50,308 nt of DNA, taken from positions 1 to 50,308 of the forward strand of contig PNKL01000019.1 in the NCBI GenBank assembly GCA_013822425.1, given 5' to 3'. How positions within the stretch are numbered: position 1 is the stretch's first letter; every line of letters begins with the position of its first letter. Below the pieces are notes generated by a model. It had not been told where the DNA came from. It searched no databases and was given only the letters and a program-made list of their open reading frames with translations. Of this stretch, positions 19,753-39,746 are shown piece by piece. Origin of the DNA: Gemmatimonas sp. (GTDB taxonomy: Bacteria; Gemmatimonadota; Gemmatimonadetes; Gemmatimonadales; Gemmatimonadaceae). Made by a program: the position numbers and the translations under genes.

Positions 19753-20619
19753 TTGAGAGTGCGCGTGGCGAGTACGAGCCCGACCGTCCCGACCGGAACC
19801 GACAGCGAAGCGGCGTATCGCCGTGACATTGCCGCGCTGCCGCGTCTCTCGGCGGCCGAGGAACAGGCCTTGGGACGACGGGCGCAGGCCGGCGATATCG
19901 CAGCGCGCAACCGCTTGGTGGAGTCGAATCTCGGCCTCGCCTTCAAGCTGGCGAGGCGCTATCACCGGCCCCCGCTGGCCATCCTCGATCTGGTACAGGC
20001 TGGCAACGAGGGGCTGATTGCTGCCGCAGATCGTTTCGACCCGTCGCGGAACGTGCCGTTCGGCGCCTACGCGGCGTACTGGATTGAGCGCCAGCTCCGC
20101 GAATTCACGTTGCAGCACTCCACCACCGTGCGAGCGCCGGTCTATCGGGCGACGGCGATCCAGAAGATCATGGCGACCGAGGAAAGGCTGCGACACCTGA
20201 TGGGCCGTGCCCCGCGGCTGGACGAAGTTGCGGAGTACGCGCGTTGCACGCTCGCAGAAGTCGAGGAAGCGCGGTGGCTGACGACGGACAGCGTGTCGCT
20301 GGATGCGACGCACGAGGAGGACGATCACGCATTGGAGTCGTCGATCGCGCAGGGTACCTACCTTGCGCCGGACCTCCTCCCGGAGCGCGCTGAGTTGCGG
20401 CGTATCGTTGACGATCTCCTGGCGGAACTGCCCGAAGTGGAAGCGCTGGTGCTTACGCTGAGTTGCGGCCTGCGGGGTCAAGTGCAGCGCACGTACGAGC
20501 AGATCGCCACCGAACTGAAGACCAGTCGCGACCGGGTGCGCCGCCTGGAGTTGCAGGCGAAGAAACGGATTTCACAGAGTCCGCGTGCGCGACAGCTCTT
20601 CGCCGAGCTGCGCGCATAG
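19753..20619 (+). CDS. Sigma-70 family RNA polymerase sigma factor (sigma A)
   Basis: Directs RNA polymerase to promoters. The 288-residue product has sigma region 1.2 (YRRDIAALPRLSAAEEQALGRRAQAGD), region 2 with the core-binding and -10 melting helices (DLVQAGNEGLIAAADRFDP and FGAYAAYWIERQLREF), region 3 (RAPVYRATAIQKI...LDEVAEYARCTLAEVEEA) and region 4 helix-turn-helix (QRTYEQIATELKTSRDRVRRLE). It is the most canonical of four sigma-like genes here, similar in length and layout to RpoH/RpoS-like group 2-3 factors. The TTG start has GTG alternatives 2 and 4 codons on. No anti-sigma gene adjoins. Confidence 0.9.
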   Translation: MRVRVASTSPTVPTGTDSEAAYRRDIAALPRLSAAEEQALGRRAQAGDIAARNRLVESNLGLAFKLARRYHRPPLAILDLVQAGNEGLIAAADRFDPSRNVPFGAYAAYWIERQLREFTLQHSTTVRAPVYRATAIQKIMATEERLRHLMGRAPRLDEVAEYARCTLAEVEEARWLTTDSVSLDATHEEDDHALESSIAQGTYLAPDLLPERAELRRIVDDLLAELPEVEALVLTLSCGLRGQVQRTYEQIATELKTSRDRVRRLELQAKKRISQSPRARQLFAELRA

Positions 20620-20661
20620 GCTGTGCTCGGTGTCTGCGCGTTTGAAGCAACGGAATCTGGA

Positions 20662-20699
20662 GTCGCACGCCTCGCACGCCTCGCTCGCCGAGGTGCGAC
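20662..20699. repeat. Inverted repeat between two sigma genes
   Basis: GTCGCAC at 20662-20668 pairs with GTGCGAC at 20693-20699, with further CTCG/CGAG pairing inside. The loop holds two tandem copies of CGCACGCCT. It may end the upstream transcript, but no T-run follows. Confidence 0.35.
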
Positions 20700-20773
20700 G
20701 TGAGATCGGCCCCGCGGCCGCTGGTTTCGAAAGCCGCCACGCTGCAGCAAGCCAGACAGCCCGTCAGGCCCCG

Positions 20774-20779
20774 TATTCT
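20774..20779 (+). promoter_or_regulatory. -10 box of the divergent sigma gene at 20807
   Basis: TATTCT, with the predicted transcript start near 20786 and a leader of about 20 nt before GTG 20807. Confidence 0.4.
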
Positions 20780-20806
20780 CTGGGAGTCTGTTCTCACGAG
20801 TGACGG

Positions 20807-21931
20807 GTGACCCGAAAGAAGACGGCAAAGACGCCGCGTCGGCTGGGGGAGGAGGACGTCTCGCGCGTCCGCTCCGGCTTTGAGGCGTACCAGGTGAGTC
20901 TGCGCAAGATGCCGCGGCTGAGTCCTGACCAGACGCTGGCGCTGTGCCGGCAGTACCGCGTGCTGGACGCCGAGGGGCGTGCCGGTCCCGAGGGCACGGT
21001 CCTGCGCGACCAGATCATCCTCGGGAACCAGGGCTTCGTGGTGCACAAGACGAACCGCTTCCTCTCGAGTCGCGGACTGCGGCCTGGCCAGGGCCGGTAC
21101 GACAGCAACAGCTTCGGGGAGATCTTCATGGACTGTGTCGCGCTGGCGAATGAGGGCATGCTCTCGTCGCTGGAGCGGTACGATCCGAATCTCCTGGTCT
21201 CGGGGGACGAGCCGGTGAAGTTCGTGACCTTCGCAGGCAACGAGGTCGACAAGAAGCTCGACGAGTTTCTCTTTCAGCACAGCGCACCCGTCGCCGTCGG
21301 CGCGGACGCACGGATCTCCATGCGGCACCTGCGGCTCGCCGAGGAGCGGTTGCGCGCGCGTGGCGAGACGGTGACCGACGCATTGCTGGCGGCGGAAATG
21401 ACGCAGATCGTGGTGGAACGGCGACAGGCGGACGGCAATCGCGTCGCGACCACCGATCGCTACCTCTACGAGGCGCGTGACGTGCCACGCATTCGCGAGC
21501 AGGAACGCGCGATGTTTGGAGACTCCCTGGACTCCCCGGTGGCCGAAGATGAGGATGGCCGCTCGCTCGGGGACCTGATCGAAGACGAACGTGCGTCGCT
21601 CGACATGCAGCCGTTCGACCTCGATCCGCGCATGCCATTGGGGGTCTTGGCGCTCGAGCGATTGCCGCGCCACCACGCGCTGGCGGTGAGTTTGCTTTCG
21701 CGGCAGTCGGTGGACGACGTGGTGATGCCGGTCGGCGAGGTGAGTCGCGTCGTGGGCGAGCCCCTGGACACCGTCGTCGCATGGGCCAACTCCGCACCGG
21801 AGGCCCTGTTTGGCGTGCGCGCGGATGCAGAGGGATCGGTCGCCGTCGTGGACGAGGAACTGGCCGACCGGATGCGGGCGGCGCGCGACGACGCGACGCA
21901 TGTTCGGCCGATTCATGGCCGTGGGCGCTAG
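20807..21931 (+). CDS. Highly divergent sigma-70-like factor (sigma B)
   Basis: A 374-residue protein whose first half follows the sigma region 1.2-2 pattern: RKMPRLSPDQTLALCRQYR, then RDQIILGNQGFVVHKTNRF, EIFMDCVALANEGMLSSLERYDP and KFVTFAGNEVDKKLDEFLFQHSAPV. These align by eye with the NL.LV, DL...GN.GL..A...FDP and F.TYA...I...L segments of true sigma factors. Region 4 is hard to see; the C-terminus (LSRQSVDDVVMPVGEVSRVVGEPLDTVVAWA) might be a reduced helix-turn-helix. Key acidic and aromatic positions differ (FMDCVALANEG for DLIQEGNIG), so promoter specificity would be unusual, or the protein may bind core polymerase without promoter recognition. It directly precedes the CHC2 protein gene (stop and ATG 1 nt apart). 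Confidence 0.65.
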   Translation: MTRKKTAKTPRRLGEEDVSRVRSGFEAYQVSLRKMPRLSPDQTLALCRQYRVLDAEGRAGPEGTVLRDQIILGNQGFVVHKTNRFLSSRGLRPGQGRYDSNSFGEIFMDCVALANEGMLSSLERYDPNLLVSGDEPVKFVTFAGNEVDKKLDEFLFQHSAPVAVGADARISMRHLRLAEERLRARGETVTDALLAAEMTQIVVERRQADGNRVATTDRYLYEARDVPRIREQERAMFGDSLDSPVAEDEDGRSLGDLIEDERASLDMQPFDLDPRMPLGVLALERLPRHHALAVSLLSRQSVDDVVMPVGEVSRVVGEPLDTVVAWANSAPEALFGVRADAEGSVAVVDEELADRMRAARDDATHVRPIHGRGR

Positions 21932-21932
21932 C

Positions 21933-23282
21933 ATGGCGTCGGCGGGGACGCGCGTGGAGCGGTCACCGCCACGGGGGCGCTTCGCCGAGAGCGCACTGCA
22001 GCAGCTACGCGAGCCGCACCGGCTCCGGCAGATGCTGGCGGAGGAGCTCACGCTGGATCGGAGCGGTCGCGCGGTATGTCCCTTCCACGGCGAGGGGAAG
22101 TCGAAGGACCGCGACTTCGCGTTTCTGACGTCGATCGGCAAGTACACCTGCTACAATACGTCGTGTCCCGCCCATGGGCGCTACGGCGACATTGTGGACT
22201 ACACGATACTGCGCCGGAACGTCGATTTTCCGACGGCGGTGCGCGACCTCGCGGCCACCTTTGGCGTGGATCTGGGGGCCGTGGAATCGACCACCCCGCA
22301 GGCGCGCTCGCGTGTGTCCCTGCTGCGCGAGGGGTTGACGGCGCTCTACGACCAGGCGCGAACGGCGCTCTGGGAGCGTGCGGGCGGAGACGCTTCGTTG
22401 CAGGCCGCGCTGCGGGCTGCTGGGTGCGGACCGGACACGGCGCACGGCCTCATTCCTGGCGTGGTTCGCGTGGCGCAGCTGACGCCGCTGGTCCAGGCGT
22501 GGCCCCGCGCGTTGCACGAGGCCTTTCGGTCGCACGGCAGCGAGGACGTGGCGACCGCGCTCGCGACCTTCGATGGCGCCCTGATCTGGCCGCATCACCA
22601 CTCCGCCGAGGATCGACGGCTGCTGGGGCTCACGGTCGAGCCATGGACGGCGACGCCCTGGTCGCGACCGCAAGCGACGTATCTGGGTCAGGTCGAGCTG
22701 CTCGAACCCATGCCGCTCCTGCTACCGCTGGCGACGGCCGAGGAACGGCGCGCGCCGGCGCCCTGGATTGCGGCACCCAGCGTGCAGGCGGCGCTCCGGC
22801 TGCGTGCGGACGGTCTGCCGCGCGTGGTGGTCGCCTCGACAGTCCGGGGGATGGGACGGCCCGCGCACTGGATGGGGACATCGCGAGAATTGATCTTCGT
22901 CACCGGGTCTCAGGAAGCGGATGAACGATCGACGTTCCACGCCATCCGCCATTGGCAACGTGCGGGCGGGACTGCTGGTGTGCTGCCGGTCGCTGATCCG
23001 GACGGCGTCACGCAGTGGAAGGACGCGGTCCTGCCGATCGATGCGTACGCGCGCGAGCCGCTCGAGTGGCAGTTGCTTCGACTGCACGAAATCGGACCAC
23101 ATGCGCGGGAACTGTGGGTGCAGCAGCGGATCCAGCCACTGCTGTCGGCCGAGACGCGGCCAGCGGTGCGCCTCCATTATGAGATGTTGCTCAGTGAGAT
23201 GACGGGATTTCCGCGTTCGGCCTTCCACACCGACGTCGCCGCGCCGGAGCGCGCGGCAACCAACCCGCGGCGCGCGCGCTAA
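21933..23282 (+). CDS. CHC2 zinc-finger primase-like protein with degenerate TOPRIM region
   Basis: A 449-residue relative of DnaG. Residues 45-110 form a CHC2 zinc-binding domain: Cys49-x2-His52 and Cys73-x4-Cys78 followed by HGRYGDIVDYTILRRNVDFPTAVRDLAATFG, the typical continuation. DnaG usually has C-x2-C in the second pair. The later region (about 290-380) has the length and strand pattern of the primase core, but the TOPRIM acidic residues are absent: the EG motif and DxD are replaced by ASTVRG and TGS. It can therefore bind single-stranded DNA or templates but probably not synthesise primers alone. An intact TOPRIM core without a zinc finger is encoded at 37130. Start ATG 21933 follows the sigma B stop by 1 nt. 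Confidence 0.75.
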   Translation: MASAGTRVERSPPRGRFAESALQQLREPHRLRQMLAEELTLDRSGRAVCPFHGEGKSKDRDFAFLTSIGKYTCYNTSCPAHGRYGDIVDYTILRRNVDFPTAVRDLAATFGVDLGAVESTTPQARSRVSLLREGLTALYDQARTALWERAGGDASLQAALRAAGCGPDTAHGLIPGVVRVAQLTPLVQAWPRALHEAFRSHGSEDVATALATFDGALIWPHHHSAEDRRLLGLTVEPWTATPWSRPQATYLGQVELLEPMPLLLPLATAEERRAPAPWIAAPSVQAALRLRADGLPRVVVASTVRGMGRPAHWMGTSRELIFVTGSQEADERSTFHAIRHWQRAGGTAGVLPVADPDGVTQWKDAVLPIDAYAREPLEWQLLRLHEIGPHARELWVQQRIQPLLSAETRPAVRLHYEMLLSEMTGFPRSAFHTDVAAPERAATNPRRAR

Positions 23283-23285
23283 CCT
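23280..23285 (+). promoter_or_regulatory. -10 box, leaderless start at 23292
   Basis: TAACCT whose first three bases are the TAA stop of the preceding gene, followed by 6 nt and ATG 23292. Confidence 0.55.
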
Positions 23286-23291
23286 CTCGGC

Positions 23292-25203: not shown

Positions 25204-25485
25204 CGCCGGTCGTTCGAGCGAGTCACCAGAGGCGCGGCCGCTGAAACGTTGCGAGACGTGCACGAGGCTGCTTGGCGATCGCACTCGGCTGCGTCGAATG
25301 GCACGAGGGCTGGAGATGTTTCCCAAGCCGGACGTCGGAGGCTGACCCTTCGAAGCCCGGGACTCCGGCTGCGCGACTGACCATCCACAGCGATTGACGC
25401 GCCGACGTTGAACGCGCACTGTATGTCAGGGTGTGCAAGGGTTGGTGTCCTGCGCGCGCACGTGCTGATACTGACTGGAGGCGCG

Positions 25486-25716: not shown

Positions 25717-25939
25717 GACGGCGTTGATGCGAGGGTAGCACACAGGCATGTCGCCTCCGGTGCGGCCAGCGTGTGTTCCGCGCGCCAGACGGCGATCGGT
25801 TCCGTCAGGGGTGTCGTTGGCGCGTGTGACCGCTTGCATCGAGGCGTTGCGGGCGGCGTCTTGGCGCTGGGGCGAACAGCTGGGCTGTATGAGCGCGGGC
25901 TAATCTGGTTAGCGTCTCGCGAAGTCGCGGAGGTCCACG

Positions 25940-28181: not shown

Positions 28182-28187
28182 AGGATA
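28182..28187 (-). promoter_or_regulatory. -10 box of the minus-strand trio
   Basis: TATCCT on the minus strand, divergent from the TACCCT box at 28229-28234; the two promoters share an 82-bp intergenic region. Confidence 0.45.
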
Positions 28188-28228
28188 GGTCTCCGACGGG
28201 CCGGCCGACGCTTCCGACCGCCGTGCGC

Positions 28229-28234
28229 TACCCT
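28229..28234 (+). promoter_or_regulatory. -10 box, leaderless start at 28241
   Basis: TACCCT, 6 nt, then ATG 28241. No Shine-Dalgarno sequence. Confidence 0.6.
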
Positions 28235-28240: not shown

Positions 28241-29278
28241 ATGAGCGTACCGATGGAAGCGCACGACGCCGCGTTGTTCGACGGGATCATGTCGGAAGTG
28301 GAGAGCTTCGTGCTTGCCGGCGATCTGGAGTGTGCGCTCGAGACGCTGCGGATGGCGGAGCGCATCAACCCGAAGGACGGGGTGCTGCGTCGGAAGATCG
28401 CTGAAGTGAATCAGCTCGCCGGACTGGCACCGGTGCCGACGGTCGAGGCGGCGGCTGCCGCGACGAAGGCGGCGCAGCATCGCTTCGCGCACCTCGTCGC
28501 GGTGGGGAAGTACGCGCCCCCGCGCACCACACTGAGTGCGGCCGAGCGGCGCACGCGTGCCCGCGCGGTGCAGCAGTATCGCGAACGCCGGCGGCGAACG
28601 CTGACAGGCGGTGCCGTAGCGATGGTTGTGCTCGTTGGGATCGTCGGTGCGCTCGGCGTGGGGACCCACGTCTGGCGGGCGCACGGTGAGGCTGCGGCGT
28701 TCGCGGCGCTGAACGCGGCGGGGACCGCGGGGCAGTGGGCGGCGGTTGAGACCGCCGTGGCGCGGCTCGGGGACCAGAAGACGCGGCCGCAATTCGTGGG
28801 AACGCTTCGGTACTGGCAGGGACGGCTCGCAGAACGAGCGGGCAAGTTGTCGGACGCGGAAACGTGGTTCACCATCGCGTGGCAAGCGGACACGACCGTG
28901 TGGGAGGCGCTGGCGCGTCGGGCGCGTGTGCGGCGCGTTCAGGGGAAGGCGGCCGCCGCGCTCGCGGATTACGGTGAGGCCTTCCGGCGGTTCGGTGCGG
29001 CGCGCGCGGTGTGGCTGGAGTACGCGGACTTGTTGCTCCGCGAGCGGCAGCGGGATCAGGCCGCGGCGGTCTACAGTGTGATCTCCAGCGACGCGCGCCA
29101 TCCCGACCGGCTCATCGCGCGTGCGCGCCTTGGGGCGATGGCAGCCGAGGCGGGGCGCTCGCGCGAGGCCCTTGAGTGGTTCCGCGAGGCTGGGCAGCCC
29201 GCCAGTGCCGGTGTGGCGCCCCTCGACGACGCGGCGCGCGCGGCCTACGACAAGTTCCGGCGCCGTCCATTGCCGTAG
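28241..29278 (+). CDS. Membrane-anchored TPR protein
   Basis: A 345-residue product. An N-terminal helical repeat (SFVLAGDLECALETLRMAERINPKDGVLRRKI) is followed by a basic segment (RERRRRTL), one transmembrane helix (GGAVAMVVLVGIVGALGVG, about 125-143) and a C-terminal array of TPRs (RYWQGRLAERAGKLSDAETWFTIAW; AAVYSVISSDARHPDRLI). The start is set by the leaderless box. It is followed after 51 nt by the RecD2 gene and may be co-transcribed. Function unknown; the layout suggests a scaffold at the inner membrane. Confidence 0.7.
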   Translation: MSVPMEAHDAALFDGIMSEVESFVLAGDLECALETLRMAERINPKDGVLRRKIAEVNQLAGLAPVPTVEAAAAATKAAQHRFAHLVAVGKYAPPRTTLSAAERRTRARAVQQYRERRRRTLTGGAVAMVVLVGIVGALGVGTHVWRAHGEAAAFAALNAAGTAGQWAAVETAVARLGDQKTRPQFVGTLRYWQGRLAERAGKLSDAETWFTIAWQADTTVWEALARRARVRRVQGKAAAALADYGEAFRRFGAARAVWLEYADLLLRERQRDQAAAVYSVISSDARHPDRLIARARLGAMAAEAGRSREALEWFREAGQPASAGVAPLDDAARAAYDKFRRRPLP

Positions 29279-29329: not shown

Positions 29330-31585
29330 ATGCCCAGCGCACCCCATGAAGCCCTGAGTGGCGTCATTGAGCGCATCACGTTCGTCGACCCGGCGACGCA
29401 GTACGCCGTCTTGCGGGTCTCGCGTGCGGAAGATCCGACGCTCATGTCCACCGTCGTCGGCACCCTGCCGGGTGCAGCGGTGGGGCTCGCGGCGCGCTTT
29501 CTCGGATCCTGGGAGACGCATCGCACACATGGACTGCGGTTTCAGGCGACGCAGATCGAACCGACCCTGCCGGTCACGGCGGAAGGGTGTGTGCGCTACC
29601 TCGCGGCCAATCCCATCTTCAAGGGCATCGGTCCGAAGACGGCCGAGCGCCTCGTGTCGAAGTTCGGTCCTGAGGTATTCCGCCTCCTTGTGGACCAACC
29701 GCAGCTCGTCGAAGCGGTCGAGCGTTCGCACAAGCGGCAGGACAAGATCCTGGCCGCGTTTGTCGCGCACGCCGACGAACAGAAGGCGCTCCAACCGCTG
29801 CTCCGGTTGCAGAGTCACGGCTTCACCCTGCGGCTGGCGAAGGCGGTGGTGAGTAAGTTCGGCATGGGCTTGGTCGAATCGGTCGTTCGGCTGACTCCGT
29901 ATCGTCTGATGGAAGTCGACGGCGTAGGCTTCCTGACCGCCGACCGGATTGCGCGCCATCTTGGCGTAGCACCGAGCGATCCGAGTCGCGTGATGGCGGG
30001 GGCGACGGCCGCCCTGCAAGCGTTGCAGGAGTCCGGGCACACCGGCGTGCCACGCCTCGCGCTCCGCAAAGGCATGCGGGCGTTGCTAGGTCTCGATGAT
30101 GACACCGTCGTCGATGCGGCGATCGACGGGGCGGTCGCGCGCGGGGCGCTGCGAGAAGATCACGCCTTGCTCTACACGCCGGACGCGCTTGCCTTCGAAT
30201 GTTCCGTGGCGGCGGCGATTGAGCGGCTTGCGTCACGCACCTTCTCGGTCTCGCCACGGTTGGCGGCGGCGGTCGAACGGGTGTGCGCCGACGAGCGGCT
30301 GACTGACGAACAGCGCGCGGCGGTGCGGCGCGCGTTCGAGGCCGGACTGTCCGTGGTCACGGGTGGCCCGGGCACGGGCAAGAGCACGACGGTTCGCAGC
30401 ATCGTGCGCGCGGCCGTGTCGGAACATCTGATCGTCGAGCTTGCCGCGCCGTCGGGCAAAGCGGCGCAGCGATTGGCCTTCCTCACGGGGCGCACGGCCA
30501 CGACCGTCCACGACTTGCTGGGCGGCTGGCGTGCGGCACGGGTGGCGACGGTGGCGGCGGACTTGGTGATCGTTGACGAATGGTCGATGGCGGGCCTCAG
30601 CCTGACCGACTGGTTGCTGGCGGCGATTGACCCTGCGCGCACGCGCGTGCTGTTCGTCGGCGATGCGAACCAGTTGCCGTCCGTGGAGTACGGACAGGTC
30701 TTCGCGGACATGCTCGCGGCCGACTGCGTGCCGGTGACACGCCTCACGGAGCCGCATCGGCAGGCGAAGGGCAGCGCGATCGTGCAGGTGGCGCATGGCA
30801 TGCTCGCTGGGACGGTGCCGGTTATCACCGGGCGCGATGCGGCGCGTGATCTCAACTTCATCGACCTCTCCTTGCCGCCCGTGGCCGACGATGGCGAGTG
30901 GCGGCCGCCGGTGTCTGACGAGGAGCGGCGGACGGCCGAATGTGCCCGGGGACAGCAGTATGTGCGGCGTGCGCTCAACGTCTGGATGACGCACGGCGCC
31001 GATCCACTGCTCGACGTCCAGGTCCTCGCGCCGATGAAGAGCGGGGCACTCGGGACCCAGCAGTTGAACCGGCTGGTGCAGGCGCACATCAACCCGCAGG
31101 GCACGCCCGGCCCGATCTTGGCCGATGGCTACGAGGTGCGCGTTGGCGACCGGGTGATCGTGACGCGGAACAACCGCTTCCTCGGGACGTTCAACGGCGA
31201 AATGGCCGTCGTGCGGGAGGTGGGCGAGCAGCGTGTCGCGCTCGACTTCAGTCCGTTCGGCCGCGCGCGGAGTGTGATCTACGAGGGTGCGATGCTGCGG
31301 CAGCTCAACCCGGGGTGGGCCATCACGATCCACAAGAGCCAGGGCTCCGAGTTCCCGCAGTGCTTCGTTGTGCTGCATACGTCGCACTACGTCATGCTCA
31401 AGCGCTGCCTGCTCTATACGGCCATCACGCGCGGCAAGCGAGAGGTGGTGGTGGCCACGACGCCGCGTGCGCTGGCGATCGCGATCAAGGCAGGCGAGCG
31501 AGACGTGCGGTGGGGGGCCCTGCAGGCGCGCCTCGAGCTGGCGGCGGCGACAGGATTGGCGTCCGGCACGCGCGCATCCGCGTGA
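29330..31585 (+). CDS. recD2: RecD2-type ATP-dependent DNA helicase
   Basis: A 5'-to-3' SF1B DNA helicase, 751 residues, the normal length for RecD2 (RecD without RecBC). The N-terminus has the OB-like start (GVIERITFVDPATQYAVLRV) and helix-hairpin-helix motifs (FKGIGPKTAERLVSKFG near 97-113; EVDGVGFLTADRIARHLG near 195). The motor has Walker A GGPGTGKSTT near 344, Walker B IVDEWSM near 413, motif III VGDANQLPSVEYG near 442, the SH3-like strand region, motif V TIHKSQGSEFP near 665 and motif VI LLYTAITRGK near 693. All catalytic motifs look intact. It is more canonical than the helicase at 16135. Confidence 0.93.
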   Translation: MPSAPHEALSGVIERITFVDPATQYAVLRVSRAEDPTLMSTVVGTLPGAAVGLAARFLGSWETHRTHGLRFQATQIEPTLPVTAEGCVRYLAANPIFKGIGPKTAERLVSKFGPEVFRLLVDQPQLVEAVERSHKRQDKILAAFVAHADEQKALQPLLRLQSHGFTLRLAKAVVSKFGMGLVESVVRLTPYRLMEVDGVGFLTADRIARHLGVAPSDPSRVMAGATAALQALQESGHTGVPRLALRKGMRALLGLDDDTVVDAAIDGAVARGALREDHALLYTPDALAFECSVAAAIERLASRTFSVSPRLAAAVERVCADERLTDEQRAAVRRAFEAGLSVVTGGPGTGKSTTVRSIVRAAVSEHLIVELAAPSGKAAQRLAFLTGRTATTVHDLLGGWRAARVATVAADLVIVDEWSMAGLSLTDWLLAAIDPARTRVLFVGDANQLPSVEYGQVFADMLAADCVPVTRLTEPHRQAKGSAIVQVAHGMLAGTVPVITGRDAARDLNFIDLSLPPVADDGEWRPPVSDEERRTAECARGQQYVRRALNVWMTHGADPLLDVQVLAPMKSGALGTQQLNRLVQAHINPQGTPGPILADGYEVRVGDRVIVTRNNRFLGTFNGEMAVVREVGEQRVALDFSPFGRARSVIYEGAMLRQLNPGWAITIHKSQGSEFPQCFVVLHTSHYVMLKRCLLYTAITRGKREVVVATTPRALAIAIKAGERDVRWGALQARLELAAATGLASGTRASA

Positions 31586-31679
31586 CGGCTGCCACGCGGC
31601 GACGTCGCGGGCATGATGGACCTTACTCCCCCGATGCAACGTCCATGCGAGCGCATGTGCGAGCAGCCCGTCTGGGCCC

Positions 31680-31713
31680 TATGCTCTCGTCAGGAGCCAT
31701 TGAGACCCTGACG
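31680..31713 (+). promoter_or_regulatory. -10 box and leader hairpin before 31722
   Basis: TATGCT at 31680-31685 places the transcript start near 31692. A 7-bp inverted repeat (CGTCAGG 31688-31694, CCTGACG 31707-31713) spans the start site and touches the GGAG at 31713-31716 that serves ATG 31722. Confidence 0.4.
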
Positions 31714-31721: not shown

Positions 31722-32183
31722 ATGCCGACGCTGCCGTTCGATCCCGTTGCACTCAAGCGCGTAACCGCTGTTGATCGGCCGGGTTCTGCGTGTGTCGTGA
31801 CCCTCGGACACCCGGGTTCGATCGACTGTCTCCAGGCGAGCGTCGTGGGCGCGACCGCAGATCGGCTGACGCCGGGCGAGGCAGGCTATCTGCTGGCGCA
31901 CGTCGTCGAGGCGGGCCTCGCGGACACGGGCGCGTTGCAGCGGCCGTTTGTTCCCGTGCTCCTCGAGGATCCGCGCAACGGACGCCAAGTCGGCGCCGTG
32001 ATGCGCGGTCGCGCGTTCAGCTTCGACTCGAGCCTGCCCGGTTCCATGGGTGGTCACTGGCTGATCACGCTGATCACGCCGACGCTGGCGACGGCCATGG
32101 GCGAGCGCGATCCGGACCTCCTGCCCTGGCGCTCCTTCGCCAAGACCGTCTTCACGGCCGAAGCTGGCCCGTTCGATGCCTGA
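31722..32183 (+). CDS. Protein of unknown function
   Basis: A 153-residue soluble protein with a mixed alpha/beta pattern (SACVVTLGHPGSIDCLQASVVG; FVPVLLEDPRNGRQVGAVMRG; HWLITLITPTLATAMGERD). GGAG lies upstream of ATG. Its last 8 nt overlap the following large gene, so the two are probably made together. No family recognised. Confidence 0.6.
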   Translation: MPTLPFDPVALKRVTAVDRPGSACVVTLGHPGSIDCLQASVVGATADRLTPGEAGYLLAHVVEAGLADTGALQRPFVPVLLEDPRNGRQVGAVMRGRAFSFDSSLPGSMGGHWLITLITPTLATAMGERDPDLLPWRSFAKTVFTAEAGPFDA

Positions 32184-34629
32184 GTTGATGACGCTGCACG
32201 TGTCGGCCGACCGGCTCGCGGATGCTGCGGGCCGGTTTGCGGCGTTGGAGAAGCTGCTCGTTCGAGAGACCGATGCGCGACGCTACCACGTGACTCTTGG
32301 CGTCGACCCGTCTGGCCAGCACCTGATCATGGCTGGTCAGTTCGCGGGGCAGACGCGTGAGGAACCGGCCATGCGCGTGCGCATGCTGGTCGCCGAGGGA
32401 CCGTTCCCGCCGGCGCTGCACGGGCATGCGGTCGTGACGTCGAGCATGGACATCCTCCTGCGTCTGCAGAAGCTGCAGGGGAAGGTGGACCGTTCGTCCC
32501 GCGTGCCGGGCGACGTGGGCATCACCGTGGAATCGCGCTGCCTGCGGCTCGACACGGCGCGTGGCGCTCGTGATGTGCCGACGTTTCCTCACGAGACGCC
32601 ATTGCCGGGCTGGAATCGGCCGACCGGGGAGTTTGTGCAGGCGCCACAGGAGGGTGGAACACTCGATCATGCCTTCGGCGTGCCGCAGATCGTTGACGAC
32701 TGGACGGCCCTTGAGGCGTACGGTGCGGATGCACATCGACCGTTCGGGCCAGCAAACCAGGGCGTCGTGCTCACCCACGATGGATGGGCGGTCGGCGTCG
32801 TGGGCAGCAGTTGGGTGGTCTCAAAGGGAGGCGAACGCGCGCCAGGCCAGCGGAGCAACCTGGCTAGCGATGTGGTCGTGCTTCCGAAGCGCCAGCTGCT
32901 CGCCGCCAGCCTGCTTGCCGCGAGCGCCGGCCGCGATACGCAGCTGCGGGCGCTCGCTTCCGTGAAGGGCATGGAGACAGACGCGTTCGTCGAACTTGTG
33001 GATGGCGTGATGGTCCACGCGTCGCTGGCAGTGCGGGCGAAGGTAGTGGAGGCGCTTGCGTCGCTCGTGGGACAGGCGGAGTTGTGGGCGTCCTTCGACG
33101 TGACCGAGGTGAAGGACGCGCAGGACCCGCATCAGGAACGCTGGAATCGAATCGCCGCGGCGGGGAGCGAGGTTGAGCGCGAGATCGACGCAGCGGTACG
33201 CAGGACGCTGGTGGACATCGATCCCTCGCTTCTCGCTACGCTCGAGCAGTCGCGAGCAGAACCGGCAGCGATGCGCTGGCGCGCCATCAACCAACTGGCG
33301 CAGCGAGCGCTGAAGATGGCCATGGCGTCAAGCACTCCGGTCTTTCGCGCGGCGATGGCTATCGCAGGCCGCGAACAAGGCCGCATGGCGGTCGAGCAGA
33401 TGGTCGGCGACGTTTCGCTGATCCACACGCCGGCCGGTCGCGCAGCGGTCCGTGACTTGCTGCGTGCGCATGCCCACAACGAAGCGGCGCGTGGCCGGCT
33501 GATCGATGACATCCTCCTGCCGCTCGCGCAGGCCCACGGCGGCACGCGGACGTTGCACGAATGGCGTGCCGAGACGCGCGCGGGTCGCGATGAGTCCCCT
33601 CTGCTTGCACAGATCGGACGGGCCGTCCGTGGCGATTTGGTGGTCCCGTCCTCGGTGAAAGTGCAGATGGATCTCTTCGCGGAGCGGCCGGATCGGGCGG
33701 TTGTCACGCGCGAAGCGGTGTCGCGCCTCTACGCGATCGAGGGCTTCCAGGCGCGGTACTGCGACCAGGCGCGTGCGGAGGCCCTGATGCCGATGGTCCA
33801 ACGGGCCTCGGTGCAGGACGATACCGTGATCCACTTTCCGGGCGTGGAGATTGCCGACCGATCGCCAGCCATGCAAGACTTGCCACGCGTGGTGACGATG
33901 CTCGATGCGGTGGCGCAGCGAGGGGCGACCATTGGTGCCGCGACGGAGTGGGTGGCGGGGGTGCGTGGCGCCGACATCAAGGCGCTGGCGGAGTCGATGC
34001 AGCGACTCGCCGCCTGGCGGCCGGGGTTACTGCGCTCGCAGGCGGGCGTCTACGCCGCAGTCTTTCTCGATCGACCGGACACGGAGCGACCGGCGGTTGC
34101 GGTGCAGGGCGTTGGCGACGTGATGGACCAGCGGGCCACGTTGCGCGTGCTCGGATTTGGCTTCAACGGCGAACGAGAGTTCACGCTGAGCGCCGTAACG
34201 CACCAGGGCGCGTTCGATGCGATGCCCGCGATGATTCCGGCGGATTCGTTGCTGCGCGCTACGGAGTCCCTGCAGGATGACGAGATCGTCACTGTCTCCT
34301 CAGTGCGATCGGGAACTGCTCCGGCATCGCTTGCGATCGGTGCGCAGAAGGCTTTCGTGGTGGCGCCCGGGACCGACGTCGCGATGATGCCGGAGCACCT
34401 GCGCTCGGACATGATCGCGGTCGTCCAGATGGCCGCCCAGCGGTGGCAGTCCCACGATCAGGTGACCGGCCGACTGGCCGAGGTGCTGGCGACGCGCGCG
34501 CGGGTGGAACGGGCGCAGGCACTCGCGGAGGCCGTCACGACGATGCCGGTAACGGGGCACCGTGTCCCCCGCGAGGTGCTTGAGGTGGCCGAGGAAATGA
34601 AGGCGGCCAGCGGCCCCCGCCGGAGGTAG
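32176..34629 (+). CDS. Large protein with a possible sliding-clamp-like N-terminus
   Basis: An 817-residue product. Residues 1-260 are reminiscent of the DNA polymerase III beta clamp: a first domain starting LHVSADRLADAAGRFAAL, with VTSSMDILLRLQKLQG and VGITVESRCLRLDTARGA in the places of the 'vpa..l..i...lp' and 'l.i..g' strands. Next comes GVVLTHDGWAVGVVGS, which recalls the ATDGHRLA motif, then DVVVLPKRQLLAASLL, recalling IVPRKALKEL. Residues 300-600 are helical and unlike anything I recognise. From about 600 it turns beta-rich again. No transmembrane segment. Identity is very low and done by eye, so 'clamp-like' is a hypothesis; the replication-gene neighbours make it reasonable. Confidence 0.45.
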   Translation: MPELMTLHVSADRLADAAGRFAALEKLLVRETDARRYHVTLGVDPSGQHLIMAGQFAGQTREEPAMRVRMLVAEGPFPPALHGHAVVTSSMDILLRLQKLQGKVDRSSRVPGDVGITVESRCLRLDTARGARDVPTFPHETPLPGWNRPTGEFVQAPQEGGTLDHAFGVPQIVDDWTALEAYGADAHRPFGPANQGVVLTHDGWAVGVVGSSWVVSKGGERAPGQRSNLASDVVVLPKRQLLAASLLAASAGRDTQLRALASVKGMETDAFVELVDGVMVHASLAVRAKVVEALASLVGQAELWASFDVTEVKDAQDPHQERWNRIAAAGSEVEREIDAAVRRTLVDIDPSLLATLEQSRAEPAAMRWRAINQLAQRALKMAMASSTPVFRAAMAIAGREQGRMAVEQMVGDVSLIHTPAGRAAVRDLLRAHAHNEAARGRLIDDILLPLAQAHGGTRTLHEWRAETRAGRDESPLLAQIGRAVRGDLVVPSSVKVQMDLFAERPDRAVVTREAVSRLYAIEGFQARYCDQARAEALMPMVQRASVQDDTVIHFPGVEIADRSPAMQDLPRVVTMLDAVAQRGATIGAATEWVAGVRGADIKALAESMQRLAAWRPGLLRSQAGVYAAVFLDRPDTERPAVAVQGVGDVMDQRATLRVLGFGFNGEREFTLSAVTHQGAFDAMPAMIPADSLLRATESLQDDEIVTVSSVRSGTAPASLAIGAQKAFVVAPGTDVAMMPEHLRSDMIAVVQMAAQRWQSHDQVTGRLAEVLATRARVERAQALAEAVTTMPVTGHRVPREVLEVAEEMKAASGPRRR

Positions 34630-34807
34630 GCCACTCCTTCCACCGGCGCGGCATCCCACGACCTGCCGTGGCGCGTTCCGCGAGAAGAACGCCCTCCGTG
34701 CGGTGCAGGGGCATCGTGGGCCTCGGTCGGTCGTCCATGCGGCGTGTCAGTCCTTTCCAAGCGGGGCGGTGGATCGCCGGTGCGCGGAATCCGGTCGGTA
34801 CACCTCT

Positions 34808-34843
34808 CCCTCCAGACGGGATTTCCCCGTTCTGGAGGGTTTT
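34808..34843 (+). terminator. Intrinsic terminator between 32176 and the third sigma gene
   Basis: CCCTCCAGA at 34808-34816 pairs exactly with TCTGGAGGG at 34831-34839, the stem continues inward with CGGG/CCCG, and TTTT follows at 34840-34843. It ends only 5 nt before ATG 34848. A TACACC sequence lies just upstream, so it could also act as an attenuator in the sigma gene leader. Confidence 0.8.
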
Positions 34844-34847
34844 GCAC

Positions 34848-35789
34848 ATGCGTGTGGAGAAGTCACGTGCGATGGGCGGCCGTGTGGCGGACCTGTCGGC
34901 CATGACCCAGTTCCAGTCGTCGCTCGATCGTGCGCCGGCGATGTCGGTGCACGAGGAGCGTGCCCTCTTCACGCGCTGGACGTCCGCGGGCGATGAGACG
35001 GCGCGCGAGGAGATTCTGCGACGCAGTCTGCGCTTCGTCTGGCCGCTCGCGGAGAAAGCGTGGCGGCAGACGCCGGGCGTGGCGTTCGAGGATTTCGTCG
35101 CGGAGGGCAACATGGCGCTGATCGAGGCGTTCGAGCGTTTCGATGTGGCCGTCGGCGCGCGCTTCTTGACCTTCGCGGAATCGTGGGTGCGTCGCCGCCT
35201 GGGCGAACTGGCTGGCGATCTCGGCGGCGCCGTGCGCGTCCCGGTGGACCGCCTGAAGCAATGCCACCAGTTGCGCCGGGCCGAGAACATCTTCCAGCAA
35301 CGCAGCGGACGTCTGCCGACTTCCGCTGAGGTCGCGCGGTTGCTCGGGTGGAGTGCGGAGGTGGTGGAGTCCACCCGGTCAACGCGCCAGCAGCACGGCG
35401 TTCTCGCGGTGTCGCTCTCGGATGACGGGGTGGACGAGCGGCTCTCGCCGGACGACCTCGGGGTTGACGCGCCGGAGATGACACCGGATTCGGTAGGCGT
35501 GGCCGACCAGCCGGTGCTTGACCTGCTCGCCGATGTCCTGACGCCCGAGCAATATCTGGTGCTCGTGCGCTATTTCGGGCTGGACGGTGCACCGGAAGAG
35601 TCGTTCGAGACCATCGCGGAGTGGATGCCGCCCGTCCGTGGTGGTCAGGTCACGAGCGGACTGGTGTTGCGCCCGGCCCGGGTCAGCCGCGAGCACGTGC
35701 GGAGGACGTACCTGGCGACGGTCACGCGGCTGAAGGCCTCGCCGGCCGGTCAGCGGCTCGAAGCCATGCTGCGCGAACGGGCGCGCTGA
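34848..35789 (+). CDS. Divergent sigma-70-like factor (sigma C)
   Basis: A 313-residue protein. Region 1.2/2.1 is MSVHEERALFTRWTSAGDETAREEILRRSLRFVWPLAEKAW, region 2.2 FEDFVAEGNMALIEAFERFD, region 2.3-2.4 ARFLTFAESWVRRRLGELAG, region 3 VRVPVDRLKQCHQLRRAENIFQQRSGRLPTSAEVARLLGWSAE, and region 4 begins LTPEQYLVLVRYFGL with helices FETIAEW and SREHVRRTYLATVTRL separated by an insertion (PPVRGGQVTSGLVL). The fold is clearly sigma-like but the region 4 helix-turn-helix is stretched. ATG 34848 lies just after a terminator hairpin; the frame is open upstream, but those codons are crossed by the hairpin. Downstream ATG codons at residues 9 and 19 are alternatives. Confidence 0.75.
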   Translation: MRVEKSRAMGGRVADLSAMTQFQSSLDRAPAMSVHEERALFTRWTSAGDETAREEILRRSLRFVWPLAEKAWRQTPGVAFEDFVAEGNMALIEAFERFDVAVGARFLTFAESWVRRRLGELAGDLGGAVRVPVDRLKQCHQLRRAENIFQQRSGRLPTSAEVARLLGWSAEVVESTRSTRQQHGVLAVSLSDDGVDERLSPDDLGVDAPEMTPDSVGVADQPVLDLLADVLTPEQYLVLVRYFGLDGAPEESFETIAEWMPPVRGGQVTSGLVLRPARVSREHVRRTYLATVTRLKASPAGQRLEAMLRERAR

Positions 35790-35872
35790 CCTCTCGCGTT
35801 GGCGGGCTGGTATCTTCCGGTTGGCATGCGGACGTCGTGACGCATGGTTCGGCGGCCGCGCCCAGCGTGCAC

Positions 35873-35878
35873 TATCCT
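35873..35878 (+). promoter_or_regulatory. -10 box of the LytTR regulator gene
   Basis: TATCCT; the transcript would start near 35885 with a leader of about 90 nt. That leader contains a run of nine G (35896-35904). Confidence 0.4.
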
Positions 35879-35974
35879 AGTGGAAGGCTGCAGGAGGGGG
35901 GGGGACACCTGCGGCTGCAAGAGAGATGACCATCGCCGCCGGTTCCTGCGGCCACGAGGGTGAACGAGGACTCT

Positions 35975-36760
35975 ATGACACAAGCGCGTCGGGTGGTGGT
36001 GGTCGATGATGACCCAACAGCACGCATGCGCCTCATCGATCTGGTGGCGGCGGAGCGCGACTTCCAACTGGTAGGAACCTGCCAGGACGGTGTCGAGGCC
36101 ATCGCACGACTGCGGTTGGGGGACGTCGACCTCGTGTTTCTCGATGTCGACATGCCGCGGAAGACGGGGCTGGAGGTGATCGCTGAAATGGGCGATGAGA
36201 TGCCCCCCGTGGTGTTCGTGACTGGCTTCATGGAGTATGCGGTCCGTGCGTTCGAGGCGTGCGCGATTGACTTCCTGCTCAAGCCATACGACGATGTTCG
36301 TTTCCACGCGGCGCTCGAGAAACTGCGCGAGCATCTCGGGTTGCGGGACGCGAATAACGGGACCGATCCGCGCATCGTGGAGCTCCAGCAGCATCTAGCG
36401 GCGCAGGGGCCAAAGCGAGACTTCCCGCGCCGAGTGCTCGTCCGGCAAGGCAACGTCTTCGAGCCGGTCGTGCTGGGGGACGTGGAGTGGATTTCAGCGG
36501 ACGGGAATTACTCCGTGTTTCACGTCGGCATGAAGATCACGATCGTTGCGAAGTCGCTCGCGAAGCTGAGCGACGACGTACTGGATCCGGACGTCTTCGT
36601 CCGTGTGCACAAGTCCGCAGTCGTGAACGTGCAGAAGATCGAGCAGCTGAAGCCGAACGACCACGGGGACCTCACGATCTGCCTGCGGAGCAAACTCACC
36701 GTGGACTGCAGTCGACGGTACCGCGATAGCTTGATGCGTCGTATCGAGGCCACCGCCTAG
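35975..36760 (+). CDS. LytTR-family response regulator
   Basis: A 261-residue two-component response regulator of the AlgR/LytR type. The receiver domain (1-120) has the acidic pocket VVVVDDDP (Asp11-13), the phosphoacceptor Asp57 in VFLDVDMP, Thr/Ser position in FVTGFME, and Lys103 in FLLKPYD. The C-terminal LytTR DNA-binding domain (about 155-255) has VEWISADGNYSVFHV and FVRVHKSAVVNVQKIEQL. All signalling residues are present. I chose ATG 35975, with GAGG 8 nt upstream; GTG 35960 is an alternative. No histidine kinase gene is in the window. LytTR proteins bind short direct repeats about 21 bp apart; such repeats lie 180 nt downstream (36940-37002). Confidence 0.92.
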   Translation: MTQARRVVVVDDDPTARMRLIDLVAAERDFQLVGTCQDGVEAIARLRLGDVDLVFLDVDMPRKTGLEVIAEMGDEMPPVVFVTGFMEYAVRAFEACAIDFLLKPYDDVRFHAALEKLREHLGLRDANNGTDPRIVELQQHLAAQGPKRDFPRRVLVRQGNVFEPVVLGDVEWISADGNYSVFHVGMKITIVAKSLAKLSDDVLDPDVFVRVHKSAVVNVQKIEQLKPNDHGDLTICLRSKLTVDCSRRYRDSLMRRIEATA

Positions 36761-36939
36761 GGACGTCGCGCGGGTTCCGTCCACGCCGTCGTAAGGACGT
36801 GCGCACGAGCGACGATGGAGCGGGTCTTCGGGTGGGTACGCGCGCGGAGCGAACCGCCGCCAGCCGGCCAGAGCGTCAGAAGAGCGTCAAAGCGGGAGCG
36901 CGGTTCCGCGGCACCGCCCGCCTGGCTCCCCGCCTGGCA

Positions 36940-37002
36940 TCCCGCTCATCATCGAAATAGTCCCGGTCATCATAGCCGGAATCCCGCTCGTCCTTTTCCG
37001 TC
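36940..37002 (+). promoter_or_regulatory. Three 21-bp-phased direct repeats (likely activator sites)
   Basis: TCCCGSTCRTC occurs at 36940, 36961 and 36982: three copies exactly 21 bp apart (TCCCGCTCATC, TCCCGGTCATC, TCCCGCTCGTC). The next 21-bp step, 37003, is the start of a TAACCT -10 box, so the third copy overlaps the -35 position. Direct repeats in this phase are the usual target of LytTR regulators, one of which is encoded just upstream. Confidence 0.65.
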
Positions 37003-37031
37003 TAACCTATTGGAAATACACGGGCTACCCT
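37003..37031 (+). promoter_or_regulatory. -10 boxes downstream of the 21-bp repeats
   Basis: TAACCT at 37003-37008, in register with the repeats, and TACCCT at 37026-37031. Transcripts from here would carry a leader of about 90-115 nt into the primase gene; no good small ORF was found in it. Confidence 0.45.
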
Positions 37032-37117
37032 CCTGCCAGTAACCCGGAGGATGGGATGGCGCCGAGAGGGTTGCAGGAGCGGGGCACGAACGGACGTCGC
37101 GAGCCTGTCACGGCAGG

Positions 37118-37123
37118 TATGCT
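37118..37123 (+). promoter_or_regulatory. -10 box, leaderless start of the primase gene
   Basis: TATGCT, 6 nt, then ATG 37130. The gene therefore seems to have both a leaderless promoter and an upstream one. Confidence 0.6.
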
Positions 37124-37129
37124 CGCGCT

Positions 37130-38572
37130 ATGACCTCACTTCCTTCGCTCGTCACCAGCTTCGCGGCGGTGGAAGCGCCGGCGGCCTCCATCGAGCGTCA
37201 GATCGCCGCTCTCGAGCTCTGCCAGCACTTCTACCGGACGTGGCTGGACAAGTCGCCATCGGCCGGGTCAGCCAGGTCCTTCGTGGAAGGCGAACGTCAT
37301 GTGGCCCCTGCGGCCTGGCGCGATCTCGCGCAGTGCGGCGTGCTCTCGATCGCGGAACGTGGACGGGACCATGCGCGCGTGCTCACGTCGGCATTGGCCG
37401 CCGCCGCGGAGACGCCACGCGGCGCGCTTCGCGCGCTGGAATCGGCGGTGCAGGCGGGTGTACTCACCCGTCGCGTCGACGACATTGCGACAGCGTTCGA
37501 GCAGCAGCACGGTGCGGGGGCGTGGAATGCGATGGCGCCCCGCACGCGTTCACGGGCCTATTGGTCGTTCCTCGTCGCGGAGACCAACCGCCGAGGGGCG
37601 GTGCCGACCGAGTTCTTCTGCGACTACCCGACGGCCCCCTGCGAAGTCAGGGGTCGCGTGCAACACCGCTATGGCGCCTGGCTCACGATCCCGGTCTTCG
37701 TGGCGCATCCGCGTACCGGAAAGCCCGTGATCGGAGGCTTCTCGTACCGTTCGCTCCGGCGGGACGTGACCAAGGATGGGCGTCACCGCAAGAGCCGCCG
37801 GAACGCCTTCTGCAACGTCGCGGGAGCCATGCTCGGCTGGGAGGAACAGGCGGCCGAGATCCAGGCGCGGGGCGCCGTCACGGTGGTCGAGGGGGTGATG
37901 GACTATCTCACCATGCGCGGCGTGCGCGCGGCCGCTCCGGTGGTCGTGCCACCGGTGGTCGCGGTGCAGGGGATCAGCCTCACGAGCGAGCAACGCGTGC
38001 AGGTGCAGCAGCGCGTCCGGCGTGCCGTGCTGTTCCTCGATGCAGACAAGGGCGGGGAACTCGGCGTGCACCAACTCGGTGCTGACCTCAGCGATGCCGG
38101 AATTCGCGTATACGTCGCGACGGTGCCAGCGGATGCTGGCAAGGACCCGTGCGACTTCAATGCGAAGCGGGGGCCTGCGGCCGTCGCGGACGCCATCCGT
38201 GGCGCTGCCGTCCGGCCGCTACCGCTCCACGAACTCGAGGTGGCGCGCACGGAACTCGATCGCCTGGCCGCGGCCGTGAAGCGGAACACACCGCCCAGTG
38301 GGCTGAGCGCACCGGCACCTCACGATCACCTAACGCTGGCCACCCATCCTCCTCTTCGGGTAGGGCATGCTGTGCTCGCGCGCGTCGGTGACGCGGTGGC
38401 CCGATGGCCGGGCAATCCCGACGACTTCGCGGCACGGAGCGCGGCGCTGCTGGGCTTGCCCCGCGAGGTCGTTGATCAGGAGATCGGACGGCGACTGCCG
38501 CTGTCCTCCAGCCAGCCCGACGTCGAGGTACAAGGCAAAGCACCGACGGCGCGAGTTGCGAGAGGACGCTGA
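37130..38572 (+). CDS. DnaG-like primase core (TOPRIM) without zinc finger
   Basis: A 480-residue protein with the catalytic part of a bacterial/phage primase. About residues 180-250 match the RNA polymerase-like core of DnaG (YGAWLTIPVFVAHPRTGKPVIGGFSY and NAFCNVAGAMLGWEE in place of 'iPi.d..G.viGFggR' and 'kYlN...t.lf'). TOPRIM follows: VVEGVMDYL with Glu254, AVLFLDADKGG with Asp304 and Asp306, and a last motif DAGKDPCDF. Thus the metal-binding acidic residues are intact. The N-terminal 170 residues are helical and contain no CHC2 zinc site; that module is on the separate protein at 21933. The start is set by the leaderless box. Followed closely by a sigma gene. Confidence 0.8.
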   Translation: MTSLPSLVTSFAAVEAPAASIERQIAALELCQHFYRTWLDKSPSAGSARSFVEGERHVAPAAWRDLAQCGVLSIAERGRDHARVLTSALAAAAETPRGALRALESAVQAGVLTRRVDDIATAFEQQHGAGAWNAMAPRTRSRAYWSFLVAETNRRGAVPTEFFCDYPTAPCEVRGRVQHRYGAWLTIPVFVAHPRTGKPVIGGFSYRSLRRDVTKDGRHRKSRRNAFCNVAGAMLGWEEQAAEIQARGAVTVVEGVMDYLTMRGVRAAAPVVVPPVVAVQGISLTSEQRVQVQQRVRRAVLFLDADKGGELGVHQLGADLSDAGIRVYVATVPADAGKDPCDFNAKRGPAAVADAIRGAAVRPLPLHELEVARTELDRLAAAVKRNTPPSGLSAPAPHDHLTLATHPPLRVGHAVLARVGDAVARWPGNPDDFAARSAALLGLPREVVDQEIGRRLPLSSSQPDVEVQGKAPTARVARGR

Positions 38573-38612
38573 GGTGAGCACGGCGCGGTGTGCGGGATCG
38601 ACAGGACAACCC

Positions 38613-38618
38613 TATCTA
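38613..38618 (+). promoter_or_regulatory. -10 box, leaderless GTG start of the fourth sigma gene
   Basis: TATCTA, then exactly 6 nt, then GTG 38625. This is the reason for choosing GTG 38625 over GTG 38574 or ATG 38661. Confidence 0.5.
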
Positions 38619-38624
38619 CGGACT

Positions 38625-39746
38625 GTGAACAGGACATTCACCACGACCGGAGCGACGGCAATGCAGCAGATGTTCGGATCAGCCCAAGGCGAGGACAGCG
38701 GCCGCGGACGTACACGGAGAGGGACAGGACTGAGTTCGGCCCGCTCGATCTTCGCGACCACGTTTCAGAAGTATCCGCCGCTGCCGCCCGGCGAGATGGC
38801 CGCCCTGAACCGCGCGCTCGGTCGCCGTGTGCAAGACGGCCGAACGGGCGTCAGCGAGGAGGCGATCGTGCTCACCGACGATGCCCGCGCGGCCCGCGAT
38901 GAGCTCGTCTTGCGCAACCTGCGTTTTCTCTCGACCCTGGCGAAGCGGTGGGACGGGGCGATGCAGGATGTTGTCGCCGCTGTGACGTCCGATGATGTGT
39001 TCGGGATCGTCCTGCAGGGTGCCCTCCGGGCTGCCGAGCGCTGGGATCCGTCACTGGCCGGCGCGGCCACCTTTCCGACGTACGCCGAGTGGTGGGTACG
39101 GGAAGCCATCGGCAAGGCGCGCGCATCCAACGCGCACGTGCTCACGACCGCCCAGGCTGTCCCGCAATTCCTGCGTAATATCAAGAAGTTCCGCGTCGCG
39201 TTTGTTGCCACGCACCGGCGCGAGCCGACGACGACGGAGATCGCCGCTGGCGTGGGGCTCCGCATCGATCGCGTCAAGGAACTCCTCGCGGTCGCGGGGA
39301 AGTCGCGCAGCCTGCACGAACCGACCGACCACGACGAACACGGGCCGACCGAGTTCGGCGAACTGTTGGGGCACGACGACCTCAGCAGCGAAGTGAGCCA
39401 CGCGAACCTCGGGACGTCACCGGAGTCGGATTACGCGTTGCGTCGTCGCGGCGAGGTGCTCGAGCAGATCTGTCGGCGCCTCGTGCCGCGCGACCGGCTG
39501 TTACTGACGTACTACTTCGGACTGGCGAACCAGAATAGCCGGAGCTTCTCGGAGATCGCCATCATGCTGAACTCGAGCCGCCAGACGATGGCCGCCGCGT
39601 TCCGGCGCCTGCTCCTCGCGCTGCGCGAGGATCCAGCCACGCGCTCGTTGCTGCTCGAGCTGAAGGAACTCTGCGAGTTTGCCGTCGCGGAGTCGGTCGC
39701 CGCCGATGACTGGCAGCAGGGCGACCTGCAGGTGGCGATGGGCTGA
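38625..39746 (+). CDS. Sigma-70 family factor (sigma D)
   Basis: A 373-residue protein. Region 2: ARDELVLRNLRFLSTLAKRWDG, VFGIVLQGALRAAERWDPS and ATFPTYAEWWVREAIGKA (the TYA..W melting helix is well kept). Region 3: AVPQFLRNIKKFRVAFVATHRREPTTTEIAAGVGLRIDRVKELLA. Region 4: LVPRDRLLLTYYFGLANQNSRSFSEIAIMLNSSRQTMAAAFRRLLLAL, a clear helix-turn-helix. An insert between regions 2.1 and 2.2 (GAMQDVVAAVTSDD) and an N-terminal extension make it longer than sigma A. It lies 52 nt after the primase gene and could be transcribed with it from the regulated upstream promoter. Confidence 0.85.
   Translation: MNRTFTTTGATAMQQMFGSAQGEDSGRGRTRRGTGLSSARSIFATTFQKYPPLPPGEMAALNRALGRRVQDGRTGVSEEAIVLTDDARAARDELVLRNLRFLSTLAKRWDGAMQDVVAAVTSDDVFGIVLQGALRAAERWDPSLAGAATFPTYAEWWVREAIGKARASNAHVLTTAQAVPQFLRNIKKFRVAFVATHRREPTTTEIAAGVGLRIDRVKELLAVAGKSRSLHEPTDHDEHGPTEFGELLGHDDLSSEVSHANLGTSPESDYALRRRGEVLEQICRRLVPRDRLLLTYYFGLANQNSRSFSEIAIMLNSSRQTMAAAFRRLLLALREDPATRSLLLELKELCEFAVAESVAADDWQQGDLQVAMG

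Follow-up and report, generated by a model that had tools for sequence, protein, structure and literature searches.

The locus raised the question of whether four sigma-70-like genes lying close together form a transcription system that belongs to a genetic element rather than to the host that carries it. The window analyzed was the whole of one contig (C19, 50,308 bp) within a 3.57-Mb Gemmatimonadaceae draft genome of 206 contigs, for which the contamination estimate was 0.71%. The original prediction, that four sigma-70-like genes of graded divergence (sigma A to sigma D) are found within 20 kb, held for all four: A, C, and D were identified with Pfam models, and B by comparison with A against shuffled sequences.

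Sigma A (19753..20619, plus strand; start at TTG 19753 or GTG 19759) was correctly described as canonical. It is a complete sigma-70 of the RpoS/RpoD-like type with Pfam regions 1.2, 2 (4.8e-14), 3, and 4, every one of which exceeded its cut-off, and none of the other three has regions 2 to 4 intact. Sigma C (34848..35789, plus strand) lies in an open reading frame spanning 34668-35789, of which the coding part starts at about 34848-34872. Regions 2 (2.1e-7) and 3 (2e-4) of sigma C were found by Pfam and region 4 was not; the stretched region 4 that had been predicted was borne out, as extra residues are inserted within the helix-turn-helix (HTH) of that region. Sigma D (38661..39746, plus strand) occupies an open reading frame at 38367-39746 with a likely start at 38661. 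For this protein the expectation of clear regions 2 to 4 with an insert was upheld for region 3 (5.9e-8), for region 2 (7.5e-5, slightly under the Pfam cut-off in one scan and above it in another), and for the inserts, which lie both before and inside region 2, but region 4 was weak. Sigma C resembles SigA/RpoS across regions 2 to 4, and both C and D matched SigA/HrdB/RpoS chains in the PDB. The best curated model was rpoS_proteo for A and C and cyanobacterial RpoD for D, in each case with a score far under the equivalog cut-off. All three proteins carry region 3, so none is an ECF sigma, a type with only regions 2 and 4.

The residues of regions 2.4 and 4.2 considered here are those that matter in the E. 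coli sigma factor, in which promoter melting relies on the WW pair of region 2.4. This pair is retained as WW in sigma D, and is YW in sigma A, SW in sigma C, and NE in sigma B. In region 4.2, the recognition helix can be made out in sigma A (SRDRVRRLELQAKKRI) and, after the insert, in sigma C (SREHVRRTYLATVTRL); in sigma D the typical residues are changed (SRQTMAAAFRRLLLAL).

Sigma B (20807..21931, plus strand) was the most divergent case, with a degenerate region 4, and it had no match in the Pfam sigma, PHROG, NCBIfam, or PDB-sequence libraries. A host-only sigma HMM run over 490 open reading frames of the window placed it fourth, behind A, C, and D, at an E-value of only 0.03. Despite the silence of the profile libraries, direct comparison with sigma A confirmed sigma B as a sigma-70 homolog, because the similarity exceeded that of shuffled sequences: the BLASTP E-value was 3e-10 in a four-sequence comparison, and the local score was 121, about 14 standard deviations above 500 shuffled versions of B, which averaged 38.5 (sd 5.7) and peaked at 65. 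The remaining proteins of the window scored 52 or less against sigma A. The alignment of B with A begins in region 1.2 (AYQVSLRKMPRLS / AYRRDIAALPRLS), crosses region 2 (CVALANEGMLSSLERYDP...VKFVTFAGNEVDKKLDEFLFQHSAPV) and then region 3, and ends in region 4, with regions 3 and 4 detectable by alignment only. The earlier view that sigma B keeps region 2 alone was therefore too narrow, as the protein is recognizable from region 1.2 through region 3 and into region 4. The absence of a region 2 match in sigma B and sigma C had been named as evidence that would count against the prediction; C has such a match, and B has none by profile but is homologous to A. A structure predicted for sigma B from its single sequence (pLDDT 37) was discarded. 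When A, C, and D were supplied as the alignment, regions 1.2 to 3 reached pLDDT 70-90 over most of their length, and nearly all of the top Foldseek matches were sigma factors, though this result was given little weight because the input alignment of A, C, and D biases the outcome. With the melting pair replaced, sigma B may be inactive or may not be a promoter-reading factor.

Relatives of sigma B were scarce in every collection searched. None was found in viral contigs, in 98 near genomes, or in a short-pattern search of GTDB genome contigs; the best match in plasmids or phages was not significant (E 0.2), and among 395 genomes of the phylum there were just three matches in other genomes, all at E 4e-4 or worse. 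Among everything compared, its best match was the adjacent sigma A (121, next 100). It is therefore plausible that sigma B is a local tandem duplicate of sigma A.

The genome as a whole contains 22 region 2 matches and 6 region 3 matches, and A, C, and D account for three of each. With so few such matches in 3.57 Mb, the occurrence of four of these genes within 20 kb is not chance. Whether they diverged from a common ancestor within the element is a separate matter. A tree was inferred that combined A, C, and D with sigma factors from the host, phages, plasmids, and E. coli; the branches of the three were 6 to 10 changes per column long and their placement was unsupported. Constraining A, C, and D together cost 5.6 log units (AU p 0.31), and constraining C and D together gave an AU p of 0.34. 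The phylogeny that had been proposed as a check thus gave the three genes no supported place, and a single origin was neither demonstrated nor rejected. The local scores of A, C, and D against outside sigma factors (362, 300, and 237, respectively) were higher than those against each other (221 or less), so that only the derivation of B from A is suggested as divergence within the element.

The claim that the sigma genes sit beside replication genes was supported. Sigma A is preceded by a gene for a Sak4-like ssDNA-annealing ATPase (18709..19638, plus strand). Sigma B is followed by a gene for the CHC2 zinc-finger half of a split DnaG-type primase (21900..23282, plus strand), and sigma D is preceded by one for the TOPRIM half (37130..38572, plus strand). 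The two halves were recognized with Pfam and PHROG models and match successive parts of phrog_6444 and TIGR01391, as expected for a split DnaG-type primase. They are encoded 14 kb apart, each adjoining a sigma gene. Two RecD2-like helicases are also encoded on the plus strand (16180..18573 and 29330..31585). Just upstream of sigma C is a gene for an 817-aa protein with no detected family or relative (32176..34629, plus strand), which had no match in the PDB sequence search. This protein appeared clamp-like by eye, and was rejected as a sliding clamp after about 20 DnaN proteins, compared with it by HMM and profile methods, yielded no match. The host genome contains a second, divergent DnaN gene on another contig (G000:C8:37746-38078).

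Other genes in the window encode PilC-, PilT-, and PilB-like proteins (594..4878, minus strand), a prepilin-like reading frame (39810-40121), a LytTR response regulator (35960..36760, plus strand), and a transglycosylase domain. The PilB of the element is only 41-44% identical to the PilB of the genus, and the genome has another, genus-like copy on contig C35. The PKD protein encoded at 40646-46348 is 1,900 aa long and contains at least eight PKD repeats at a spacing of about 399 bp. Together with the pilus genes, the prepilin-like frame, and the transglycosylase domain, it accounts for much of the remaining sequence.

Several observations bear on the origin of the contig. No clear ortholog in the genus was found for any window protein searched, no relative better than E 5e-4 was found for the 817-aa protein or for a 627-aa protein, and a search of viral contigs with four window proteins gave no relatives. 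The only relatives found for the Sak4-like protein were in two other Gemmatimonadaceae genomes (G049:C109:23086-24018 and NZ_CP007129.1:764721-765635, the latter a 1.1-Mb Gemmatirosa plasmid). Their neighbors differ: an HMM search detected no sigma gene nearby, and there was little else in common besides one LytTR-domain match. GC content and the tetranucleotide pattern of the first 40 kb correlated with those of the genome at r 0.89-0.93, as compared with 0.96 between the halves of the host genome. The two ends of the contig do not overlap and thus give no sign of circularity or completeness. Relaxase and type IV secretion genes, which would mark a conjugative plasmid, were absent from Pfam scans of the main genes of what may be a partial element. 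The contig is probably a foreign replicon, an integrated element, or part of one, and the failure to find the tested genes in relatives supports the idea that the transcription system is owned by the element.

The chief new finding on such a system came from the intergenic regions, in which a recurring CTAYNCTA-like string was first spotted by eye. A pattern-free search was then made of all 7-mers with five fixed bases, with 300 dinucleotide-shuffled sets as a control. CTANNCT exceeded all other patterns, occurring in 13 of 27 upstream regions where 1.1 were expected (z 9.3), whereas no pattern in the shuffled sets rose above z 5.5. To compare window and host on the same footing, one host-trained gene caller was applied to both, with 33 stretches (about 655 kb) representing the host. 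With starts predicted in this way from codon usage, CTANNCT was present in 12 of 29 upstream regions in the window and 16 of 320 in the host, where 19.3 were expected (Fisher 1.3e-7). No sister contigs carrying the motif were found in the host sequence sampled, and there was no enrichment in the Gemmatirosa plasmid or in the G049 contig bearing the other Sak4 relative. Several of the host's own top patterns were of the form GTANNNT, which was found in 68 of 320 upstream regions (45 expected) and is possibly the housekeeping -10 form of the genus.

When CTANNCT was numbered -13 to -7, the two strongest other columns were C at -32 (14 of 16 sites, 1.15 bits) and A at +1 (11 of 16 sites, 1.07 bits), both above the 95% limit for the best column in shuffled flanks (0.78). 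Because these bases stand at a fixed spacing, the motif was read as a promoter, and the predicted class has the form C(-32), 18 nt, CTANNCT, 6 nt, A(+1), in which the -35 element is weak and A is the initiating base. Nine of the 16 sites lie 10-58 nt upstream of a predicted gene start.

The sites are distributed over most of the contig. On the plus strand, they precede the operon at 5055 (5026..5032), the RecD2-like helicase gene at 16180 (16122..16128), the Sak4-like gene (18607..18613), sigma A (CTACGCT at 19729..19735, predicted +1 at 19742), the gene at 28253 (28228..28234), the pair at 31797 and 32176 that includes the 817-aa protein (31679..31685), the LytTR response regulator (35872..35878), the TOPRIM gene (37025..37031, with another site at 37002), the PKD protein (40608..40614), and the gene at 48189 (48164..48170). 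On the minus strand, they precede the PilB/PilT/PilC operon (4960..4966) and the genes at 28158-26422 (28182..28188). Sigma B is preceded by a GTANNCT variant (GTATTCT at 20773..20779, plus strand), and no CTANNCT is found before sigma C or sigma D. This pattern is compatible with more than one promoter class and speaks neither for nor against the suggested time order. A search for distinct motifs before the blocks of genes had been proposed as a check; it yielded a contig-specific class, but no second motif, such as might serve sigma C or D, was detected in the upstream regions of the window. Two sub-classes suspected by eye (before sigma B, 31797, and 28158) were discarded when pairwise upstream similarity was not above that of shuffles, and a scan for canonical sigma-70 promoters gave nothing exceeding shuffles.

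Sigma C has an unusual upstream region. A strong terminator-like hairpin (34808..34840, plus strand) lies directly 5' of the gene, within the extension of the reading frame to 34668; it is followed by UUUU, and a 66-nt stretch folds at -30 kcal/mol (z -3.6). The hairpin looks like the terminator of the preceding gene, and its position leaves almost no space for a promoter. Possible routes of expression are read-through or a later start at ATG 34872, which has GGAG upstream. A second possible hairpin covers this GGAG, and the arrangement as a whole (34808-34872) may represent attenuation or a masked ribosome-binding site.

Because CTANNCT precedes about half of the tested starts of the element and is not characteristic of the host, the element probably runs its own gene-expression program on the host polymerase. 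This agrees with the original prediction of a transcription system belonging to the element, as do the genes missing from relatives. In the model that is modestly favored, the element supplies its own system of promoter recognition and uses the core RNA polymerase of the host, which, when loaded with sigma A, would transcribe the CTANNCT genes. Sigma A is the likeliest reader on account of its intact domains and its own promoter, although this is the least certain step, as the host primary sigma is the competing candidate; the housekeeping sigma might read CTANNCT because the motif fits the general TANNNT core. If sigma A does read the motif, it would be among its own targets and thus autoregulated, since its gene bears a CTANNCT site. 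Sigma B, the probable tandem duplicate, and the more distant C and D would then direct smaller or later sets of genes or act as modified specificity factors, having lost or altered parts that contact -10 or -35 DNA. A bolder form of this model, in which a non-viral, pilus-encoding Gemmatimonadaceae replicon uses four sigma factors of its own in sequence with private promoters and thereby frees most of its transcription from host promoters, is doubtful.

Other explanations must be weighed against this model. CTANNCT could be an ordinary housekeeping promoter that belongs to a different organism, the true host of the contig, and is recognized by that organism's primary sigma; the contig would then be either recently imported or mis-binned, and the four sigma factors would be accessory. 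The TANNNT core retained in the motif, the lack of clear orthologs in the genus among the proteins searched, and the fragmented draft state of the genome with its small estimated contamination all fit this explanation. The composition of the first 40 kb fits the resident genome, however, and the coexistence of many sigma genes with a private promoter would have to be coincidence, making a foreign housekeeping promoter rather unlikely. Another possibility is that the four sigma genes are unrelated cargo gained singly from hosts, with no joint program. This would account for A, C, and D being nearer to outside sigma factors than to one another and for the failure of the tree to unite them, but independent cargo would not be expected to sit among the replication genes of one contig that has one private promoter class, and the explanation is considered unlikely.

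A similarly small probability was assigned to the element being a phage (lytic or temperate), or what is left of one, that carries an early-middle-late sigma cascade like that of SPO1. The Sak4-like protein, the split primase, the RecD-like helicases, and sigma A, C, and D all match PHROG families, which is in keeping with a phage, as is the presence of three sigma factors in each of the phages SPO1 and SP10 (PMC9429907). Against it, in a PHROG scan of 30 window protein entries from this possibly incomplete element, no match to a terminase, portal, capsid, or tail family scored convincingly, the sole lysis- or tail-type match being the lytic transglycosylase domain. The element instead encodes pilus ATPases and a prepilin-like frame, the four proteins searched had no relatives in viral contigs, and a single promoter class was found. 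Finally, CTANNCT could be the operator of one regulator, such as the LytTR protein at 35960, rather than a -10 element, since one regulator could likewise yield a motif spread over the whole element, and the LytTR gene itself carries a site. Binding sites of LytTR proteins usually come as paired direct repeats, and no such arrangement was seen. The TA---T core, with its A at exactly +1 and C at -32 in a constant register, has the geometry of a promoter, nine of the 16 sites lie shortly before a predicted start, and an operator was judged very unlikely.

Under the favored model of an element-owned system, a close functional parallel is found in SPO1 and SP10, whose cascade involves gp28, gp34, and gp2.21 (PMC9429907). 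As in those phages, where the factors redirect the host RNA polymerase to promoters of the element, several sigma-70-family factors are encoded on one element. The locus differs in having four factors, one of them complete and RpoS/RpoD-like, in its pilus genes and single detected promoter class, and in the lack of virion genes among the protein entries scanned. The late sigma factor gp55 of T4 is a diverged sigma with a region 2 homology domain (PMC7892883), and the element described here, which likewise encodes replication genes of its own, has a strongly diverged sigma factor as well. However, gp55 has region 2 only and works with a clamp partner, whereas sigma B aligns into region 4 and no clamp homolog was demonstrated on the contig. 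In domain order and sequence, A, C, and D resemble the group 1 and 2 sigma factors (RpoD, RpoS, and cyanobacterial SigA/SigD), but they fall far below the equivalog cut-offs, are borne on an element, and are very divergent. Plasmid-borne sigma factors of the RpoD/SigA family, found in cyanobacteria and others and including a gene on Gemmatirosa plasmid 1 that is 35-38% identical to sigma A, are likewise full-length genes on extrachromosomal DNA. Most of the records listed contain one or two sites that match D or C (20-30% identity), and none of them has been shown to possess a promoter class of its own.

Sigma cascades encoded by an element have so far been described from a few lytic phages, and the principle here is the same. 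What differs is the number of factors, the gene content, which so far looks non-viral, and a promoter class that extends over the whole contig. If the element is as non-viral as it appears, with four sigma factors and a promoter class for which the sampled host regions show no enrichment, it would be a plasmid-like counterpart of the phage cascades. If true, this would show how a replicon that uses a borrowed polymerase can remain in charge of its own expression, and would provide pairs of sigma factors and promoters for testing.
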